From: Fenollaria massiliensis
GTDB taxonomy: Bacteria > Bacillota > Clostridia > Tissierellales > Peptoniphilaceae
DNA length: 64,000 nucleotides
Direction: 5' to 3'
NCBI RefSeq assembly: GCF_000312505.2
Contig: NZ_HG326225.1
Coordinates: forward strand, 138,249-202,248
In this document: positions 53,737 through 62,976 of the stretch, piece after piece
How the letters are laid out: each line of letters opens with the position of its first letter
How positions within the stretch are numbered: position 1 is the first letter of the stretch
Position numbers and translations under genes: made by a program
The notes under the pieces: generated by a model
The model's input: the letters and a program-made list of their open reading frames with translations, nothing else
What the model was told of the DNA's origin: nothing
The model's database searches: none

Positions 53737-54420
53737 TTACCTCCATTTATTTTTTATTTGACTTAGTCGTTCTTCCACTTCGTTTATTGAGTGGTGCTTT
53801 ACTTCTTTCTTTATTTTTGCCATAAGTGAATTACTTACTGCTCTTCTAGAAAAGACCATGTTTGTTACTTTTTCATCTTTTCTCTTATCGCTTAGAGTGC
53901 CGTCACAAAATCCCATCTCTATAGCTTTATTTTTGTCAAACCAAGTCTCTCCATCCATAAGATTAGAAATCTCTTCTCTAGAAAGTCCTGTCTTGATTTC
54001 ATAAGCGTTTATGATTGATTCTTTGACTTCGTTAAGCATCTCAATAGCTTTCTGCATTTCTTTAGAATCGCCAATGGCTACAGTTAAAGGGTTATGGATC
54101 ATCATTAAAGATGTCGGACTCATTAAAACTTCAGTTCCTGCCATAGCGATAACTGATGCAGCTGATGCTGCAAGTCCATCAATCTTTATAGTTACATTGC
54201 CTTTGTGTTCTAAAAGCATTGTGTAAATTCTTGATGCTGCTATACAGTCGCCACCAGGTGAGTTGATCCATACCGTTATGTCTCCTTTCTTATTTTTTAA
54301 TTCTTCAAAAAAGAGCCTTGGTGTGATTTCATCATCAAACCAAGACTCTTCTGCTATAACCCCATCTATATAGAGTTCATTTTCATTCTCTTTCCAGTTC
54401 CAAAATATTTTATTTTTCAT
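53737..54420 (-). CDS. ClpP-like prohead protease
   Basis: 227 aa of the S14/ClpP phage protease family: INSPGGDCIAASRIYTML oxyanion region, catalytic Ser86 in GLAASAAS and His109 in MMIHNPL, with the aspartate about 50 residues on. It processes the capsid scaffold during head maturation. It overlaps the portal gene by 11 bp and precedes the capsid gene by 4 bp, in the classic portal-protease-capsid order. Confidence 0.92.
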   Translation of the reverse strand: MKNKIFWNWKENENELYIDGVIAEESWFDDEITPRLFFEELKNKKGDITVWINSPGGDCIAASRIYTMLLEHKGNVTIKIDGLAASAASVIAMAGTEVLMSPTSLMMIHNPLTVAIGDSKEMQKAIEMLNEVKESIINAYEIKTGLSREEISNLMDGETWFDKNKAIEMGFCDGTLSDKRKDEKVTNMVFSRRAVSNSLMAKIKKEVKHHSINEVEERLSQIKNKWR

Positions 54421-55647
54421 CCTCTAAATCATTACCTCCATTCTTTTCATAGAAAGCTCCCGCCTTATTAAGTGGTAGCATGTTTCCATTAACAAGATAT
54501 AAGTCGCCACCTTCTTCAGCTGAAATTCTATCAAGATTTTCTAGCTCTCGTATATCGTTTGCACTCATCCAACCATTCTGCCTACCAACAGCATAACCAT
54601 TCATTCTTGATTCATAGTCTCCTCTTAGAAGTCCATCAAGATTAAACTTAATGAAATAGTCTTCTTTTTCTTTTTTGTTAATAGTGATCTCTCTAGAGAT
54701 TGCTCCCATCTAATTATCCAAGGATCGAGAGTATATTTAACAAACTCAAGTGACTGCTGTTCAATATTTGAAAAAGACGACCTTTCTAAGTCTCCTATCA
54801 TATGAGGTGGAACTCTGAAAATTCTTGCTATTTCATTTAACTGAAACTTTCTAGTTTCTAAAAATTGAGCCTCACTTGGAGCAATCGCTATTGGTTGATA
54901 CTTCATCCCTTCTTCGAGTACAGCTACTTTGTTAGCATTCTTTGGTCCTTGAAATGCAGCATTCCAAGATTCTCTAACTCTTTCAGGATCCTTAATTATA
55001 CCAGGATGCTCTAAAACGCCACCTGGTTGGGCTCCATTTTGAAAGAATGAGGCACCATATTCTTCACAAGCCATAGCCATGCCTATAGCATTTTTTGCCA
55101 TTGTAATTGGCGAATATCCAATAAGTCCGTCAAATCCAAGTCCTGGTATATGAAGAACATCTTCTTTTAATAAATAGACATCTTCGTACTTATACTTGTA
55201 TTTATAGAAGATTTCTCCATCTTCACTTCTCATAACAGTCATCTTGTTTGGCATCAAAGGATAAAGACCAACAATTTCATTTTTTCCATTTCTTATTATT
55301 TGAGCGTATGCATTACCCCATAGCAAAAGATGTGTCATTAGTGTTTCTCTAAATACAAATGAAGTCATTTCACTATTTGGTTCATCATGTAATAAAAAAT
55401 ATAAAGTGTGTTGTTTTGCTTTCTCTTTAGAACTAGAATTCTCTTTTTTGTAAAGATGTAAAGGTAGTCCAGCTAAAGTTTCTGCAAGAACTCTAACACA
55501 CGAATATACTGCTGTCATCTGCATAGCTGTAAATCCATTAACTTCCTTATTTACAATTGTTCTGCCAAACAAAAAAGACGATGAAGATATTCTCTCCCCG
55601 TCTCTTGGTTTGTCTCTCGACTTAAAGATTAAATTTAAAATTCCTAT
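54410..55647 (-). CDS. HK97-type portal protein, joined by a -1 frameshift
   Basis: The portal reads in two frames. The first (from 55647 to 54625) has MTAVYSCVRVLAETLAGLPL, then RETLMTHLLLWGNAYAQI, then LNEIARIFRVPPHMIGDLER and leaves the family match after RWEQSLERSLLT. The second (ending 54410) resumes as KKEKEDYFIKFNLDGLLRGD. At 54670-54676 is A AAA AAG, a classic -1 slippery heptamer in the right phase. The family start maps to an AUA at 55647, 7 nt after AGGAGG; no AUG, GUG or UUG is available there. It may be a programmed shift, a mutation or a sequencing indel. Confidence 0.8.
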
Positions 55648-56695: not shown

Positions 56696-58291
56696 TTAAA
56701 ATACTAATAGACCTCTATCATCATAAACAGATTCACTTGTATCATTACCACATCTTATAGCCCTATCAAGAGCCATGATTGTAGCAATAACTCCATCTAT
56801 CTTTTCTGTAGATTTTTCTTTATCTGCCTTTATATTTCCTGCAGGATCTGTTCGTATAAATATGTTATCCATCATCCATCTTAAAACTGGGTGTCCTGCA
56901 TGAGCTATTTTCCTTTCGAGTGTTAACTTCATCAATTCTTTTGTAGGTGGTGACATATCTTTGAAACCCTGTCCAAATGGCACTACTGTAAAACCCATAT
57001 TTTCAAGATTCTGAACCATTTGAACTGCTCCCCATCTATCGAATGCTATTTCTCTTATGTTATACTTTTCTCCCAAATCTTCAATAAATTTTTCTATAAA
57101 TCCATAGTGAACTACATTACCTTCTGTTGTTTGAATGAAACCTTGCCTTTTCCACAAGTCATAGTTTACATGGTCTCTTTTTACTCTTAAATCAAGATTG
57201 TCTTCTGGTAACCAAAAGTAAGGTAGTATCTGAAATTTATCGTCTTCATCTAGTGGTGGAAACACTAGAACAAAGGCTGTTATATCCGTTGTAGACGAAA
57301 GGTCTAGACCACCATAACAGACCCTACCTTTTATTTCGTCTTCATTGACAGCAAAATTACATAAATCCCATTTATCCATTGGCATCCATCTAATAACTTG
57401 TTTTACCCATTGATTAAGTCTTAGCTGTCTAAATGAGTTCTCTTCCGATGGGTTCTGCTTAGCAGAGTTGAATGCTTGTCTTACTTTTTCTATTGGAACA
57501 GTTATACCAAGCGAGGGATTAGCTTTATACCAAATTTTCTCATCGGTCCAGTCATCATCTCTATGAGCTCCATAAATAACTGGGTAGAATGTAGGATCAG
57601 TCTTTCTGCCCTCAAGAATATCTACTGCCTTTTGATGTGTTTCATAGCAGATTGATTTCGTATCTGTTCCTGCAGTTGTTATTAAAAAATACAAGGGTTG
57701 AGTTCTAGCATCTCCAGATCCCTTTGTCATTACATCAAATAGTTTTCTGTTAGGCTGCGTATGTAATTCATCAAAAACAACTCCGTGAATGTTAAATCCA
57801 TGTTTTGAATATGCTTCTGCCGACAATACTTGATAAAAAGAATTTGTAGGTTTATATATCATTCTCTTCTGTGATGCTAGTATTTTTACTCTCTTAGAAA
57901 GTGCAGGGGACATTCTTACCATATCTGCTGCGACATCAAAAACGATAGTTGCTTGTTGTCTATCTGCAGCACATCCATATACTTCTGCTCTCTCTTCTCC
58001 ATCGCCGCATGTAAGAAGTAAAGCTACAGCTGCTGCAAGTTCTGACTTTCCCATCTTCTTTGGAATTTCTATATATGCTGTATTGAATTGTCTGTAACCA
58101 GTTTCTTTTACAATACCAAATAAATCTCTAATAATTTCTTCTTGCCAATCTATAAGCTTAAAATCTTTGCCTGCCCATCTACCTTTTGTGTGCTTAAGAC
58201 ACTCTATAAAGGTAACAGCATAGTCAGCCTTCTTTTTATCATATCTTGAGTTTGCTAGCATGAATTTACTTGGTGTGTATTTCTTTTTCAT
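56696..58291 (-). CDS. Terminase large subunit (TerL)
   Basis: 531 aa of the Terminase_1/HK97-like family. A Walker A-like P-loop EIPKKMGKSEL (75-85), Walker B GVVFDELH (about 190), coupling motif LITTAGTD. The nuclease part has GGLDLSSTTDITAF (first Asp), then REIAFDRWGAVQMV, then KIDGVIATIMALDRAI (last Asp). It cuts concatemers and pumps DNA into the prohead. It lies after a group of small genes rather than directly behind the small subunit, which is at 62980. Confidence 0.93.
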   Translation of the reverse strand: MKKKYTPSKFMLANSRYDKKKADYAVTFIECLKHTKGRWAGKDFKLIDWQEEIIRDLFGIVKETGYRQFNTAYIEIPKKMGKSELAAAVALLLTCGDGEERAEVYGCAADRQQATIVFDVAADMVRMSPALSKRVKILASQKRMIYKPTNSFYQVLSAEAYSKHGFNIHGVVFDELHTQPNRKLFDVMTKGSGDARTQPLYFLITTAGTDTKSICYETHQKAVDILEGRKTDPTFYPVIYGAHRDDDWTDEKIWYKANPSLGITVPIEKVRQAFNSAKQNPSEENSFRQLRLNQWVKQVIRWMPMDKWDLCNFAVNEDEIKGRVCYGGLDLSSTTDITAFVLVFPPLDEDDKFQILPYFWLPEDNLDLRVKRDHVNYDLWKRQGFIQTTEGNVVHYGFIEKFIEDLGEKYNIREIAFDRWGAVQMVQNLENMGFTVVPFGQGFKDMSPPTKELMKLTLERKIAHAGHPVLRWMMDNIFIRTDPAGNIKADKEKSTEKIDGVIATIMALDRAIRCGNDTSESVYDDRGLLVF

Positions 58292-58382
58292 TGGTCCTCC
58301 TTTCTGAAAATGGGCATAAAAAATACTAGCCTTTAGCTAGTTCACTACGACAAATAGAGCCTAACTCGTTTTGTCTTTTATT

Positions 58383-58577
58383 TTAAAATAAATCGTCTAT
58401 TTTATTATATTCATCTTTTAGTTGATTTAGCTCTTGATATATGCATTGAGCTCTAAAATTGTTTCTTGTTTCTCTTAGCTTCTTTTCTAAATCGTATATT
58501 TCTTTCTTTCTTCTTGTTAATACCTCAATTTCGTCTCCTTCCAATGCTGCCTTATAATCTTTTTCAAAACTTGTCAT
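58383..58577 (-). CDS. Small charged coiled-coil protein
   Basis: About 64 aa from MTSFEKDYKAAL, behind GAGGTGG. It is helical and charged (TRRKKEIYDLEKKLRETRNN, then YQELNQLKDEYNKIDDLF), perhaps coiled-coil. Function unknown. It has its own promoter copy (58600-58675), unlike the structural genes, and lies just before TerL. Confidence 0.6.
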   Translation of the reverse strand: MTSFEKDYKAALEGDEIEVLTRRKKEIYDLEKKLRETRNNFRAQCIYQELNQLKDEYNKIDDLF

Positions 58578-58599
58578 TTTGTTTTCCACCTCTTCCTTT

Positions 58600-58680
58600 T
58601 TTCTTGTGTACATATTAGCGTACATCTAGGAATAAGTCAAGTATAATTTTTAATATAAATGGCTATTTTTCAATCTTTTT
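58600..58680 (-). promoter_or_regulatory. Repeated promoter cassette, copy 3 (most diverged)
   Basis: It matches the copies at 58898 and 59353 over about 75 bp (AAAAAGATTGAAAAATAGCC, then TTATATT, TTGACTTAT and TGTACAC). The -35 TTGACT is kept; the -10 region differs (gcTAATAT). It drives the 58383 gene. Confidence 0.65.
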
Positions 58681-58870
58681 ATTTGCTTTGCTTGCCTAGT
58701 TCGTAAGCTTCTCTAAGCATTTCTTTTAAAGACCATACTGAAATGTCTAAGAAGTCTTCTGAGTCGTTATTTCTTTTTTCTAAATCTCCTCTATTCTCTA
58801 CTGCGTATGAATGTTTCTTAGCGATTTCTAAAAGTTGTAAATTTTCCTTTTTTAATTCTTTCTTTGCCAT
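58679..58870 (-). CDS. 63-aa hypothetical phage protein
   Basis: MAKKELKKENLQLLEIAKKH, then YAVENRGDLEKRNNDSEDFL, then SVWSLKEMLREAYELGKQ. It is helical and charged, with no known family. It starts behind AAAAGGAGATAAAGAAA, the same leader as the gene at 58957, showing that the promoter, leader and start were duplicated together. Confidence 0.65.
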   Translation of the reverse strand: MAKKELKKENLQLLEIAKKHSYAVENRGDLEKRNNDSEDFLDISVWSLKEMLREAYELGKQSK

Positions 58871-58892
58871 TTTCTTTATCTCCTTTTCCTTT

Positions 58893-58977
58893 TTTTGTTG
58901 TGTACATATTACCGTACTAATCGATATAAGTCAAGCTATATTTTCAATATAAATGGCTATTTTTCAATCTTTCTTAA
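58893..58977 (-). promoter_or_regulatory. Repeated promoter cassette, copy 2
   Basis: Nearly identical to 59350-59438: the 3' coding end (AAGATTGAAAAATAG), ATAGCCATTTATATTG, -35 TTGACT, a 17-bp spacer, -10 TAGTACGGTAATAT region, TGTACAC and the AAAAGGAGATAAAG ribosome site. It drives the 58679 gene. Confidence 0.75.
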
Positions 58978-59331
58978 AACTAAAGCAGGTTTTATTTCTT
59001 TTTCATCTTCTTGTGTTTCAAAATTCCAGTCTATTCTTCCTGTTTCTTGTTCGATTAGGTCAACTATGGAATATCCATTATTTTTGAAGGCTTGCAATTC
59101 ATTCATAAGTGCTGTAGATTGGTCTGAAATTGTAAATTCTTTAATTTCAAATCTCTCAAGGTTTTCTATAATTTCTTTGTAGTCCTTTTCAAATCCCAAT
59201 TCTTCAAAGTCTAATCTTTCAAGTCCTACTCTTTTAGCTTTTTCGTAGGCCCAATAAAATCTGTGGTTGATTTTGTTTTCTTTGAAATCTTCATTTGTTT
59301 CAAGGTTTTCTAAAATGTCAATTTTTTTCAT
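58957..59331 (-). CDS. 124-aa hypothetical phage protein
   Basis: It starts at MKKIDILENLETN behind AAGGAGATAAAGAAA; in-frame codons further upstream fall in the promoter. The middle contains YWAYEKAKRVGLERLDFEEL, then LERFEIKEFTISDQSTALMN, then LQAFKNNGYSIVDLIEQETG, a segment typical of small phage proteins of unknown function (DUF7698-like proteins share this pattern, but I am not certain). It ends in RKIEK, the first codons of the repeat. Confidence 0.65.
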   Translation of the reverse strand: MKKIDILENLETNEDFKENKINHRFYWAYEKAKRVGLERLDFEELGFEKDYKEIIENLERFEIKEFTISDQSTALMNELQAFKNNGYSIVDLIEQETGRIDWNFETQEDEKEIKPALVLRKIEK

Positions 59332-59349
59332 TTTCTTTATCTCCTTTTC

Positions 59350-59438
59350 CTTTTTTTGTTGTGTACATATTACCGTACTAATCACTATAAGTCAAGCTAT
59401 ATTTTCAATATAAATGGCTATTTTTCAATCTTTTTAAC
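59350..59438 (-). promoter_or_regulatory. Repeated promoter cassette, copy 1
   Basis: On the minus strand TTGACT, a 17-bp spacer (TATAGTGATTAGTACGG) and TAATAT form a consensus-like promoter, followed by TGTACAC and the AAAAGGAGATAAAG ribosome site. The cassette begins inside the last codons of the DUF4314 gene and ends at the start of the 58957 gene. Confidence 0.78.
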
Positions 59439-59636
59439 CCTATCAACCCTATACAAAACATTAAGTGTTGATCCATTGTCCCACTTAACTAAAATCGATC
59501 CAATATCATCAACTCCACATACTGTTCCTAAAGTTCCAGTAGGAGGTGCTTGCTCATCTTCCATGCTTAGAAGTTTTACTCTAGCACCTACTGGATATAT
59601 TTTTCTTAAATCTTTTATAATTTCCTTTGAAATCAT
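59418..59636 (-). CDS. DUF4314 family protein
   Basis: 72 aa: MISKEIIKDLRKIYPVGARV, then LLSMEDEQAPPTGTLGTVCG, then VDDIGSILVKWDNGSTLNVL, closely following the DUF4314 pattern (an SH3-like beta-barrel). Common in Firmicute phages and mobile elements; function unknown. It has AGGTGATTAG upstream, and the cytosine methyltransferase gene lies before it. Confidence 0.88.
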   Translation of the reverse strand: MISKEIIKDLRKIYPVGARVKLLSMEDEQAPPTGTLGTVCGVDDIGSILVKWDNGSTLNVLYRVDRVKKIEK

Positions 59637-59685
59637 CTAATCACCTCACATACATATATTGCTCAAACACTCTATTTAGTCAAGT

Positions 59686-60969
59686 CTATTTATCAATATT
59701 TACTAATCTTTTAAAAATAAATATCGCACATGGAAGAGCGATACCATTGCCCCACATTTTGTATTCAGCTGAATCGGTATGAGGATTTTTAAGCCATTTA
59801 ATAATTTGCTTATCTGTTTTCCTAAATGTAAGGCCTCTTAGTTCTGCATCTTTATCAAAAACAGACCTCCAAAATAAAAGGTCTTTGTCCGTTGGATTGT
59901 CTATTCCTAAATCTTCACACCAGTAATCTGGAAAGCCTTGTAACCTACCACATTCTTTTGGCGTTAGTCTTCTAATAATTTTTTGATTAACAAGTGGTGG
60001 GTCTTTGTAATCTGTAGCTACAAGAGCTGACGAGATATTTTTATCAGCTTTAGTAAAATGATTGTTCTTGCTCATTGAGTAAACTTCTTCAATTATTGCT
60101 ACTCCACCTTGATTTCTAATTGGAGTGTTTCCACTTGTATCTATAGTTCTTGAAGTATCACATTCATAAATATTGTGTCGTTCATTTTTAGTGTTTACAG
60201 ATGTCTGACGAATATCATAAGCAAGAAAAGTTTTCTTGCTCGCATTTACCCAACTTAAGTTATCTGTTTTAGAAGTGCATCTTTCAGTGGCTTTGGTATT
60301 TGTCTTCCCTTCCTTTTTGCTCTTGATAGTATTCCAAGACAAGCCTTTCTGCTCAAATAATATTTGACTGGCACTTGTTCCATTAAGATCTGCGACAAGG
60401 AAGATGCGAGTTCTTCGTTGGGGCACTCCAAAATATTTAGCATCAAGGACTCTCCAAGCAATGGTGTAATTATCTCCCAAGATTTCTCCTGCATTGTTCC
60501 ATTTCTTAGGTCTAGGAAGTTTAACTTTTGATTCGTTGATTTTTGTAATTTCTTCGAGGACAGATCTAAAGTCTTCTCCTTTGTTTGATGAGAATGCTCC
60601 TGGTACATTTTCCCATAATAAGTATCTTGGATATTTGCCATTTGTTCTGCACCTCATTTCTTTAATAACTCTTATTGCCTCATAAAATAGGCTAGACTTT
60701 TTGCCTTCAAGACCTGCTCTCTTTCCAGCAAGAGATAAATCTTGACAAGGACTACCAAAAGATATTATATCAACAGTTTCTATTTCGTAGCCGTTTATAT
60801 CTTTTATGTCACCTAAATGCTTAACACAAGCTAGGTTTTTCTGTGTGACTCGTATTGGAAACGGCTCAACTTCAGATGCCCATATAGGTTTTATTCCACA
60901 TAAAATAGCGGCTAAAGGAAATCCTCCACTACCGTCAAAAAGTGAGCCTAGAGTTAGCTCTTTATTCAT
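59686..60969 (-). CDS. DNA (cytosine-5-)-methyltransferase
   Basis: 427 aa. Motif I SLFDGSGGFPLAA (8-20), motif IV ISFGSPCQDLS with catalytic Cys75, motif VI LLWENVPG (about 118), motif VIII-like RRTRIFLVADL, and C-terminal motif IX/X RRLTPKECGRLQGFPD, with GNGIALPCA. The variable part is rather short. It methylates the phage DNA, probably protecting it against host restriction. Its start overlaps the preceding methylase by 8 bp. Confidence 0.93.
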   Translation of the reverse strand: MNKELTLGSLFDGSGGFPLAAILCGIKPIWASEVEPFPIRVTQKNLACVKHLGDIKDINGYEIETVDIISFGSPCQDLSLAGKRAGLEGKKSSLFYEAIRVIKEMRCRTNGKYPRYLLWENVPGAFSSNKGEDFRSVLEEITKINESKVKLPRPKKWNNAGEILGDNYTIAWRVLDAKYFGVPQRRTRIFLVADLNGTSASQILFEQKGLSWNTIKSKKEGKTNTKATERCTSKTDNLSWVNASKKTFLAYDIRQTSVNTKNERHNIYECDTSRTIDTSGNTPIRNQGGVAIIEEVYSMSKNNHFTKADKNISSALVATDYKDPPLVNQKIIRRLTPKECGRLQGFPDYWCEDLGIDNPTDKDLLFWRSVFDKDAELRGLTFRKTDKQIIKWLKNPHTDSAEYKMWGNGIALPCAIFIFKRLVNIDK

Positions 60970-62197
60970 CTTTTACAACCTCTGTGTATTTATATATTTT
61001 TCCATCTCTTAAAAGACTTACATCTTCATCACTGCCAACAAGCTCAATGTATCTATTTACAATTACATCAACAAACTTTTCATCAAGTTCTATCATTCTG
61101 CATACCCTATCTGTCTGCTCACAAGCTATAAGGGTGCTTCCACTGCCACCAAATGGATCGAGTACTACTGAGTTAACCATTGATGAGTTTTTAATTGGAT
61201 ATGATAAAAGTGGAATCGGCTTCATTGTAGGATGATCGCCATTCTTTCTTGGTTTATCAAATTCCCAAATAGTAGACTCTTTTCTGCCAGTGTACCAGTT
61301 ATGTTTACCTTTTTTCTTCCAACCGTAAAGTATTGGTTCGTGTTGCCATTGATATGGACTTCTTCCTAGAACCAGTGACTGTTTCTTCCAAATACAAGTG
61401 CCAGAAAGATAGAAACCAGCATCTTGAAACGCTTTTCTAAAGTTAAGTCCTTCTGTATCTGCATGAAACACATATATTGATCCATCATTAGCTAAATATT
61501 TTTCCATATTTAAAAAGGAGCTTAGTAAAAATTCATAAAATTTACTTTGCTCCATGTTATCATTTTTAATTTTTCCAGCAGACCCTTCGTAATTAACATT
61601 ATATGGTGGATCTGTAATTATCAGATTAGCTTTTGTATCTTCCATTAATCTTTCATAAGTTTTTTCATCAGTAGCATCGCCACATATCAATTTATGTCTT
61701 CCTAAGGTCCATATATCCCCAGCTTTTGAAAAGGTAGGTTTTTCTAGCTCTTTATCTACATCAAAGTCATCGTCTTTTGTCTCATTATCTAAATCAAATA
61801 TATTAGATAGCTCTTCACTTGAAAAGCCTGTAAGCTCAAGATTAAAACCATAGTCTTCTAAAGCTTCAATTTCAACTCTTAAAAGTTCCTCGTCCCAAGC
61901 AGCATCGAGTGCCATTCTATTATCAGCTAGAATGTATGCTTTCTTTTGAGCTTCATTTAAGTGATCTGCAAAAACACAAGGAACTTCTTTTATTCCTTCC
62001 TCCTTAGCTGCCATAATTCTTCCATGACCTGCAATTACTCCGTAGTCTTTGTCAATTATAATGGGATTTATAAAACCAAACTCTCTTATAGATGCTCTTA
62101 GTTTGCTTATTTGGTCTGGTGAGTGAGTTCTAGCATTATTTATATATGGTACTAATTTGTCAATATCGACAAGCTTCATCTCTTTTGTCGTTATCAT
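60962..62197 (-). CDS. ParB-like nuclease domain/DNA adenine-type methyltransferase fusion
   Basis: About 411 aa from MITTKEMKLVDI, whose ATG overlaps the stop of the SAM synthetase (ATGA). The N-terminal 110 residues are ParB/Srx-like: VPYINNARTHSPDQISKLRA, then GFINPIIIDKDYGVIAGHGR. The methylase domain has motif IV LIITDPPYNVNYEG (about 190) and motif I VLDPFGGSGSTL (about 370), the beta class (N6-adenine or N4-cytosine). Fusions like this are common in phages and protect their DNA. It is the partner of the adjacent cytosine methylase. Confidence 0.93.
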   Translation of the reverse strand: MITTKEMKLVDIDKLVPYINNARTHSPDQISKLRASIREFGFINPIIIDKDYGVIAGHGRIMAAKEEGIKEVPCVFADHLNEAQKKAYILADNRMALDAAWDEELLRVEIEALEDYGFNLELTGFSSEELSNIFDLDNETKDDDFDVDKELEKPTFSKAGDIWTLGRHKLICGDATDEKTYERLMEDTKANLIITDPPYNVNYEGSAGKIKNDNMEQSKFYEFLLSSFLNMEKYLANDGSIYVFHADTEGLNFRKAFQDAGFYLSGTCIWKKQSLVLGRSPYQWQHEPILYGWKKKGKHNWYTGRKESTIWEFDKPRKNGDHPTMKPIPLLSYPIKNSSMVNSVVLDPFGGSGSTLIACEQTDRVCRMIELDEKFVDVIVNRYIELVGSDEDVSLLRDGKIYKYTEVVKDE

Positions 62198-62976
62198 ATT
62201 AACCCCCACTTAGCAAATTCTTCAAAACCACCAATAGAATCAATATACCCTTTTGCAATTGCTACAATTTCTGTGTATGGCTTTCCATCTATTTCATCAT
62301 CGCCAATAGCACACGAGAGCTCAATCACTCTATTTTCCTTTTGAGCCTTTAGATAAGCATAGATATTAACAGAAACGTCTGCTTTAGATAGATCTTTTCC
62401 ATGCAATCCTCCACCAGTTACTGCTCTACCCATATCTGAGCCTATTTTTCTATTTGTAGCTCCTGTGTCGACATCTGTTCCACCAGTCCAATCACCTAAT
62501 GGATTGATTATTGCATTTGGATAAATGTCTTGTAAGATTTCTGCTTCTACATTTGATTGACAAATAATAAGTTTATCTCCATCTAAAATGTACTTACCAT
62601 CGTATGGGTGATTAGAAAAAATCTCTCTAGCTATTTCTGCTAGCTTTCTTTCTTCATTTGATCTTGGCACACCTTTAAAAATTCCATTGTCGCCACATCT
62701 TATTTTATCCTCTTGATTTTTAGCAAGCTTTGTATCTTGTTTTACAATCTTTATATCACAATTTACATCTCCTGCTATTCTTTTAATAATTGCTTCTATT
62801 TCTTTTATTTCAAACTTGCAATCTGTCTCTATAATGACATGGCAATTGCCGTGACCTAATAAAACTTCAACAGCTACTTTTGCTTTGTCTTGTTTCTTGT
62901 ATGCTAGGTCAACAATAGCACCTGCAATGCAATCTGCAATTTTATCAGGATGCTTTGGATTTACTTTTTCAAACAT
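62194..62976 (-). CDS. Short phage-encoded S-adenosylmethionine synthetase-like protein
   Basis: 260 aa, against about 390-400 for bacterial MetK. Kept motifs: the N-terminal NPKHPDKIADCIAGAI (ATP-binding HPDK), the loop GDNGIFKG in place of GDQG, and GGLHGKDLSKADVS in place of the GGGAFSGKDxTKVDRS P-loop. Missing parts are the central domain segments. It may make AdoMet locally for the two methylases encoded next, or bind it. Whether it is active cannot be seen. Confidence 0.85.
   Translation of the reverse strand: MFEKVNPKHPDKIADCIAGAIVDLAYKKQDKAKVAVEVLLGHGNCHVIIETDCKFEIKEIEAIIKRIAGDVNCDIKIVKQDTKLAKNQEDKIRCGDNGIFKGVPRSNEERKLAEIAREIFSNHPYDGKYILDGDKLIICQSNVEAEILQDIYPNAIINPLGDWTGGTDVDTGATNRKIGSDMGRAVTGGGLHGKDLSKADVSVNIYAYLKAQKENRVIELSCAIGDDEIDGKPYTEIVAIAKGYIDSIGGFEEFAKWGLI

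Follow-up and report, generated by a model that had tools for sequence, protein, structure and literature searches.

Three small genes just upstream of the terminase large subunit gene (terL) in a phage-like stretch of the Fenollaria massiliensis genome each start behind a copy of the same promoter-like sequence. We consider it likely that these copies are promoters of an accessory-gene island whose genes are exchanged together with, or between, the cassettes. Each copy would be a complete unit of promoter and leader from which the one small gene behind it is transcribed, and the cassette would be the form taken here by a promoter family marking an accessory island, reaching from DNA methyltransferase genes to terL, in many phages of Gram-positive bacteria. 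Coordinates given without a prefix are those of the window, by which we mean the whole 64,000-nt stretch of DNA that was analyzed.

Results

Three copies of a cassette precede three small genes

Direct repeats of 110 nt occur three times just upstream of terL, all on the minus strand. Copy 3 (59324..59433, minus strand) consists of a tail, a promoter-like sequence (-35 TTGACT at 59395-59390, -10 TAATAT at 59372-59367), and a leader, and precedes the gene for a DUF7698 protein; copy 2 (58863..58972, minus strand; promoter 58934-58906) precedes a DUF6900 gene, and copy 1 (58569..58678, minus strand; promoter 58640-58612) precedes the gene for a 64-aa protein. Identity to the middle copy is 96% for copy 3 and 74% for copy 1. 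The TTGACT-17-TAATAT cores, at 59361-59395, 58900-58934, and 58606-58640, are the three matches with 0 mismatches in the window; none was found in 100 shuffles, and a search of the whole 1.71-Mb genome returned the same three cores only, with 0 in the reversed control. An upstream motif, GAAAAATAGCCATTTAT, also has three occurrences, a number reached in 0 of 100 shuffles. A lone TTGACT/TAATAT match has little weight in such A+T-rich DNA, since 76 consensus promoters were found when 81.1 were expected from shuffles; the weight is carried by repetition and conservation, not by a single promoter match. A fourth promoter-like site of the same kind, diverged in sequence (CTTGACTAAATAGAGTGTTTGAGCAATATATG; 59653..59684, minus strand), lies before the DUF4314 gene upstream of the three. 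A search of 58000-60000 against Rfam gave no match at E≤0.1.

An earlier note, made from the letters of the sequence, had proposed a threefold repeat here with a promoter for each gene, and both proposals are borne out: the repeats and their cores are as given above, and a conserved -35/-10 pair stands at each gene start as a putative promoter. The positions it named (58600, 58893, and 59350) fall inside the copies, but a full copy runs from the tail through the promoter and leader to the start codon and measures 110 nt rather than about 80 bp. The shared tail is coding, as claimed, before copies 3 and 2, where the frame ends KIEK-stop, but before copy 1 it follows the DUF6900 stop codon. The leader was said to be the same in two copies; in copies 2 and 3, the only two differences among 105 positions fall outside it. 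The promoters had also been called constitutive-looking. The window variant TTGACT-17-TAATAT agrees with this; the canonical form of the family, described below, does not, and its -10 region, GTGATATAT, resembles the housekeeping consensus poorly by eye.

Promoter elements are conserved where the copies otherwise diverge

Between copies 3 and 2, 103 of 105 positions match, and the two exceptions lie in the 8-nt spacer segment between the -35 and -10. Copy 1 matches copy 3 at 26/26 tail positions, at 9/9 in the -35, and at 18/19 in the box around the -10, while agreement is 7/12 in the A+T stretch, 1/8 in the spacer, and 18/30 in the leader. Since the tail, -35, and box were held constant while copy 1 diverged elsewhere, the repeat is more than a recent duplication, and the promoter elements look constrained. 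An ordinary tandem duplication without regulatory meaning would account for the near identity of copies 2 and 3, but this reading is already contradicted by the conservation pattern, in which copy 1 diverged except in the tail, -35, and box, and the same elements stand in front of unrelated genes of many phages; we hold it to be very improbable.

The tail is probably kept as DNA, because its coding status differs between the copies and because the genes before it in two relatives, L012 and L013, have different stop codons and read different frames of the tail. Within the canonical set described below, the tail motif GAAAAATAG is rare (3/137, versus 0.2 in shuffled sequences); it looks therefore like a feature of the lineage, and its rarity rules it out as a general element of the family. 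The 19-nt tail motif TTGAAAAATAGCCATTTAT was also seen on another contig (L039:2851-2869), before a quite different promoter-like sequence.

Genes and boundaries of the island

The gene behind copy 3 (58957..59331, minus strand) encodes a DUF7698 protein of 124 aa (PF24753, E=1.2e-21), the gene behind copy 2 (58679..58870, minus strand) a DUF6900 protein of 63 aa (PF21841, E=4e-21), and the gene behind copy 1 (58383..58577, minus strand, its start at 58577 corrected from the sequence) a 64-aa protein of unknown family with a homolog in Streptococcus phage Javan422 (49%). Their upstream neighbor encodes a DUF4314 protein of 72 aa (59418..59636, minus strand; PF14192, E=9.8e-29), and the upstream boundary is formed by genes for a C5 methyltransferase, a ParB-fused N4/N6 methyltransferase, and a SAM synthetase-like protein (59686..62976, minus strand). 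The downstream boundary is terL (56696..58291, minus strand), which was assigned from synteny and sequence and occupies the same place as the annotated terL of Javan422. At 54410-55572, a portal-like reading frame appears as two overlapping frames of 315 and 99 aa, perhaps a broken gene or a programmed frameshift.

None of the four small proteins matched a PADLOC model at E≤0.01, and NCBIfam gave no functional lead for the small proteins. The fold model of the DUF7698 protein (pLDDT 83, pTM 0.76) had no match among PDB folds at E≤0.001, the best being Alba-like at E 0.01, and its sole match among viral folds at E≤0.001 was another DUF7698 protein. The DUF6900 protein is modeled as two helices (pLDDT 77), and a comparison of the DUF7698 and DUF6900 proteins with PDB sequences gave nothing convincing at E≤1.

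The genes behind the cassettes change between relatives

With the window included, we observed five arrangements of genes behind the cassettes. In L012 and L013 (DUF7698 90% identical), a single cassette stands before DUF7698; behind DUF7698 comes a different gene, whose product starts MKKD[IL]LERLE and which has no cassette, and then terL, with no DUF6900 or 64-aa homolog between DUF4314 and terL. By comparison with these two relatives, genes of the window are inserted between genes that are neighbors elsewhere, as is expected of morons. L022-L030 carry two cassettes, before DUF7698 and before the MKKD[IL]LERLE-type gene, and L288 carries two as well, before a third type of gene (product start MAYKYMK) and before the MKKD[IL]LERLE-type gene. 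In L328-L334 the MAYKYMK-type gene is followed directly by DUF6900, which is without its own cassette; a window-type cassette precedes the MAYKYMK-type gene in 6 of these 7, the pattern being unmatched in L333. In L335 the start of the MAYKYMK-type gene is missing. At the position homologous to the site before DUF4314, L333 has the canonical core with 2 mismatches and six other relatives have it with 4. Since DUF6900 in L328-L334 and the second gene of L012 and L013 lack a cassette of their own, they count against an explanation with one cassette for every gene.

A family scan for DUF7698 gave a match in 21 of 249 genomes. By eye, a cassette stands at the start codon in 18 of 19 distinct DUF7698 genes, that of the window included and L031 being the exception; L033 and L034, weak matches inside long unrelated frames, were left out of this count, and the gene sets contain near-identical phages, so that 19 genes are not 19 independent events. 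The window core also matched once in an unrelated phage contig (L007:3359-3391), where a long palindrome spans the -10; we regard this match as probably coincidental.

The earlier note had suggested searching other prophages for the cassette with different genes, and had held that an absence of gene variation between copies in related phages would speak against it. The variation is present, in the five arrangements just described. As to the direction of gene change, we infer that a single cassette such as that of L012 and L013 was probably copied in the window phage, which would have given DUF6900 and the 64-aa gene one each.

Comparison with constitutive morons

The definition of a moron includes expression in the lysogen. 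If these were classical constitutive morons, the prophage would express three separate genes serving fitness or superinfection exclusion, and the earlier note suggested a reading of this kind. Several features agree with it: each gene start has its own promoter-like cassette with a conserved -35/-10, the genes are present or absent in relatives, the block is followed by a terminator-like pattern before terL, and the small genes are slightly lower in G+C (0.27-0.31) than the nine other phage genes scored (0.34-0.38), with DUF4314 at 0.33. At third positions, the G+C of the small genes overlaps that of other phage genes.

The terminator-like pattern is a hairpin followed by ATTTTTT (58325..58341, minus strand), found by pattern match between the last cassette gene and terL; none is listed between the three small genes. 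Such patterns number 16 in the 20-kb region, versus 7.5 (sd 3.1) in shuffles, and the fold itself is no better than shuffles (z -1.03 over 89 nt, -0.13 over 48 nt), so that an end of the block before terL is only suggested. The lysogenic state is itself putative: the phage-like stretch sits in a long contig of the genome, but by eye no integrase or CI-like repressor gene was noticed in 42406-64000 or in L041:1-10136, from the lysis genes to where the early region ends, and non-exhaustive Pfam scans of nine early-region proteins found no integrase or repressor. The moron reading is further weakened by the absence of a defense-family match, by a terminator hairpin no more stable than shuffles, and by the recurrence of the island and its promoters in many phages, where sporadic insertions would be expected. 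We regard it as rather unlikely. What stands of it is a promoter-like cassette for each gene and a varying set of genes; the genes themselves look less like isolated morons than like members of an island with its own promoter-like family.

A canonical promoter-like family in phages of Gram-positive bacteria

One form that the cassette takes before the DUF7698 genes of other phages is ACTTGCTATT-N-TTAGAGTGATATATGTACATACC, and the canonical core of the family is CTTG[C/A]TAT (CTTGMTAT), exactly 8 nt, and TTTAGAGTGATATAT. An IMG/VR search with the pattern CTTGMTAT, 8-12 nt, TTTAGAGTGATATAT found at least 120 stretches with the canonical core. The gap was 8 at 133/133 sites in the listed IMG/VR loci, and no other gap from 4 to 16 occurred. 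A pattern lengthened by one base, with a fixed gap of 8, yielded at least 117 stretches in genome contigs. We take the organism names of the listed contigs to indicate hosts that are mostly Clostridia, Bacilli, Negativicutes, and Erysipelotrichia; the few metagenome-assembled genomes that bear names from other phyla probably reflect mis-binning. Downstream of most sites there is a frame preceded by a ribosome-site-like sequence, starting 22-53 nt downstream at 129/133 sites of the listed IMG/VR loci and 23-58 nt downstream at 131/134 sites of the listed genome loci.

Among 249 genomes of the order to which the window belongs, the canonical core with ≤1 mismatch was found at 46 sites in 26 genomes, and the window-type core with ≤1 mismatch at 38 sites in 21 genomes, with reversed controls of 0 in both searches. 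The exact 15-mer box, searched without the -35 in 130 genomes of the window's taxonomic family, gave 8 sites versus 1 in the control; all but one of the 8 fall on a core site of ≤1 mismatch. A 50-nt query in the style of the family matched 100 places in 54 phage records at E≤1, a threshold at which the weakest matches may be due to chance and from which we inspected the sites of four records; the 54 are named after Streptococcus, Erysipelothrix, Gardnerella, Terrisporobacter, Blautia, Coprococcus, Ruminococcus, and others. In the Streptococcus phage Javan422, cores with 0 and 1 mismatch precede the homologs of DUF6900 and the 64-aa gene, and the same genes thus carry the canonical form in another phage.

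The source genome of the window has 0 sites for the canonical core with ≤1 mismatch. Because the strict core failed there, the window copies are a variant rather than strict members, and their place in the family is suggested by their position, by the orthologous genes, and by the intermediate form before DUF4314. Before the canonical promoter, the words TACACA and TTTGTG are enriched, with preferred positions at about -60 and about -30 relative to CTTG, and these are possibly further control sites. In the published literature covered (openly accessible articles, preprints aside), we found no description of such a promoter family, nor the 15-mer box, nor DUF4314, DUF6900, and DUF7698 paired with one another or with phage. 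A promoter-like family of this wide range was thus not found in print; a shared promoter of phage accessory genes is a known kind.

In loci with terL, most sites lie upstream of it

Homologs of terL were found in 142 of the 237 listed loci, and at least one of five head or packaging gene homologs in 174/237 (84/120 IMG/VR, 90/117 genome). In the listed loci with terL, 155/162 sites lie upstream of terL on the same strand, 7/162 lie on the same strand downstream of the terL start, and 0 lie on the opposite strand; a further 105 of the 267 sites are in listed loci without a terL match, some of which are short or cut. The window copies likewise stand at the starts of island genes, upstream of terL and on its strand.

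The 89 non-redundant proteins encoded downstream of sites in the listed IMG/VR loci matched the Pfam families amidoligase (15), DUF7698 (8), serine recombinase (6), DUF7678 (3), DUF6329 (3), Nmad4 (2), and DUF4314 (2), and one PHROG amidoligase family matched 40 of the 89. In Erysipelothrix and Gardnerella phages, the sites are at the starts of a "virulence(-related)" gene and of small genes that lie between the SAM synthetase/methyltransferase block and terL. The canonical core is found ahead of serine recombinase genes as well, for example in L054, L077, and L105, and is thus not confined to the island before terL. In NatCom_34063 (L005), the core occurs twice between a ParB-like gene and the portal gene.

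Symmetry around the -10 and likeness of copies within a phage

In all three window copies GTAC stands on both sides of the -10, and the resulting GTAC-N8-GTAC dyad could be an operator, a repressor or activator site of a phage regulator common to the copies. Two observations agree with this: L022-type relatives have TTGTAC-N10-GTACAA in both copies, and conservation in the canonical family extends past the -10 into ACC[A/G]AAA. The dyad spacing, however, is 8 versus 10 between close relatives, no such dyad is seen by eye in the canonical box, and the dyad is also the top of an RNA hairpin. A two-site operator, formed by inverted symmetry between the upstream region and the box, was rejected, as there was no clear excess of own over other pairings and the differences were small (for example, 7.34 versus 7.19 of 12; symmetry at ≥80% in 0-9% of own versus 0-7% of other pairs). 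We consider operators an unlikely explanation.

Copies within a phage are more alike than copies from different phages in the box (0.557 versus 0.471, 0/1000 permutations), with a weaker excess in the leader (34/1000 permutations). As the spacer (0.427 versus 0.349) and the upstream region (0.441 versus 0.375) are also more alike within a phage, this likeness does not demonstrate a phage-specific regulator.

The spacer is complementary to the leader

Across the family, the spacer is complementary to the leader of the same cassette. In the IMG/VR set (n=81), the longest reverse-complementary run between own spacer and leader averaged 5.06, versus 4.53 when permuted (z 6.1, 0/1000 permutations; z 5.3, 0/500, in the first run of this test). 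A genome set made non-redundant against the IMG/VR set (n=57) gave 5.23 versus 4.63 (z 5.2, 0/1000), and stricter thinning left z 5.6 at n=67 (0/1000) and z 3.5 at n=34 (1/1000). Reverse-only, complement-only, and direct controls in these four sets ranged from z -1.0 to 2.0. When only the 8 variable bases of the spacer were used, the reverse complement scored z 6.7 and the complement-only control z 3.2.

Since the spacer is absent from RNA started at the promoter, a spacer-leader hairpin could form only in read-through RNA or in single-stranded DNA. This raises the reading that the spacer is an anti-leader: read-through RNA would fold the spacer onto the leader and keep the gene silent, and promoter-started RNA would be translated. 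In its favor, along with the replicated complementarity, shuffling the 5' part makes read-through RNA less stable (native -14.3 versus -12.6, n=108, p 9e-6), also in the window type (-11.3 versus -8.6, n=23 including the three window copies, p 1.3e-5). In window-type relatives with a called gene, spacer-box-leader RNA folds at -8.7 to -15.5 kcal/mol, with L314 an exception at -5.1, while the own transcript stays at 0 to -2.6; L296, L297, and L305, where the script called no gene, are outside the folding set. On the other side, the ribosome site is no less accessible than with shuffled (p 0.30 and 0.06) or swapped (p 0.66, n=69) 5' parts, a complementary run of ≥6 occurs in 34/108 cassettes and covers the ribosome site in only 20 of these 34, and the complement-only control also rises when the spacer is cut to 8 bases. 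In the window, copies 2 and 3 fold weakly, at about -4 to -6 kcal/mol, and copy 1 alone folds well (-13.3 kcal/mol for its read-through RNA), so that strong folding is seen in one of three copies. Insulation from read-through is a possible but doubtful reading of these data, and in the window phage it would be at most partly kept.

Discussion

The results reported above are best accounted for by cassette promoters that belong to an accessory-gene island. Transcripts from the cassettes would be independent of the operon spanning the methyltransferase genes and terL, and a short transcript of its own would give each cassette gene an expression program, and in particular a timing, separate from that of the late operon. 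We infer from the conserved -35/-10 elements that the candidate sequences are active promoters. Genes would enter and leave the island together with a cassette or between two copies.

Several known systems resemble this arrangement. Mycobacteriophage start-associated sequences act at translation starts and are not known to be complete promoters with a leader. As in the window, a single phage has a short regulatory sequence repeated where several of its small genes start, but the window cassettes combine a promoter-like sequence with a leader. The insertion sequences IS10 and IS50 are protected from read-through transcription by an experimentally tested mechanism. There, as may be the case here, read-through RNA and not the own transcript could fold over the ribosome site; for the cassettes, in contrast to that tested mechanism, the suggestion comes from complementarity and folding only.

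Phage morons (compare PMC7067206) resemble the window genes in an own promoter-like sequence, in presence or absence between conserved neighbors, and in a terminator-like pattern after the block; the window differs in that the promoter family and its fixed genomic place are common to many phages, and its terminator is weak. The phages of the "Ca. Heliusvirales" offer a further likeness, as NatCom_34063, placed there by its record, carries the core twice with 0 mismatches. In the main text of the article on the Candidatus Heliusviridae gut phages (PMC9226167), the word "promoter" is absent.

A likeness is also found in archaeal viruses, in which, according to PMC11065993, a near-identical early promoter stands before many small single genes and can be used to predict accessory genes. 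As there, one promoter sequence in the window phage and its relatives precedes many dissimilar small single genes that cluster in one part of the genome. In that account, the archaeal promoters have TATA/BRE elements and lie at genome ends, whereas the island of the window is internal, before terL; early expression is known for the archaeal genes and some predicted genes were tested as anti-defense, whereas the window is known from its sequence. Given this likeness and the DNA-modifying genes next to the island, early expression against host defenses is plausible.

A phage gene with a sigma-70 region 4 lies beyond the right end of the window, at the start of the early region (L041:9549-10136), and its product is a candidate for the factor by which the conserved box would be recognized. 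An apparent defense cluster adjoins the early region of the phage (L041:10515-15752): it comprises a protein that looks HNH-like by eye and has a weak LmuA-like match, a DUF2326 protein, and matches to a type II restriction enzyme and a type II methyltransferase. A more far-reaching reading takes the family as an undescribed regulon of Gram-positive phages, in which the promoters of individual genes mark an anti-host or anti-defense island and the spacer anti-leader restricts expression to the early phase by silencing late read-through; in this complete form we find it distinctly improbable. Should the spacer-leader complementarity be functional, it would provide a compact means of separating early from late expression inside a late operon.

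One promoter-like sequence, recognizable in phages whose Gram-positive hosts differ widely, leads directly to the accessory genes of the island. Most small proteins of the island are without an assigned function, and the promoter-like sequence gives a handle for finding accessory genes. As with the early promoters of archaeal viruses, it may serve as bait for candidate anti-defense genes in bacterial phages.
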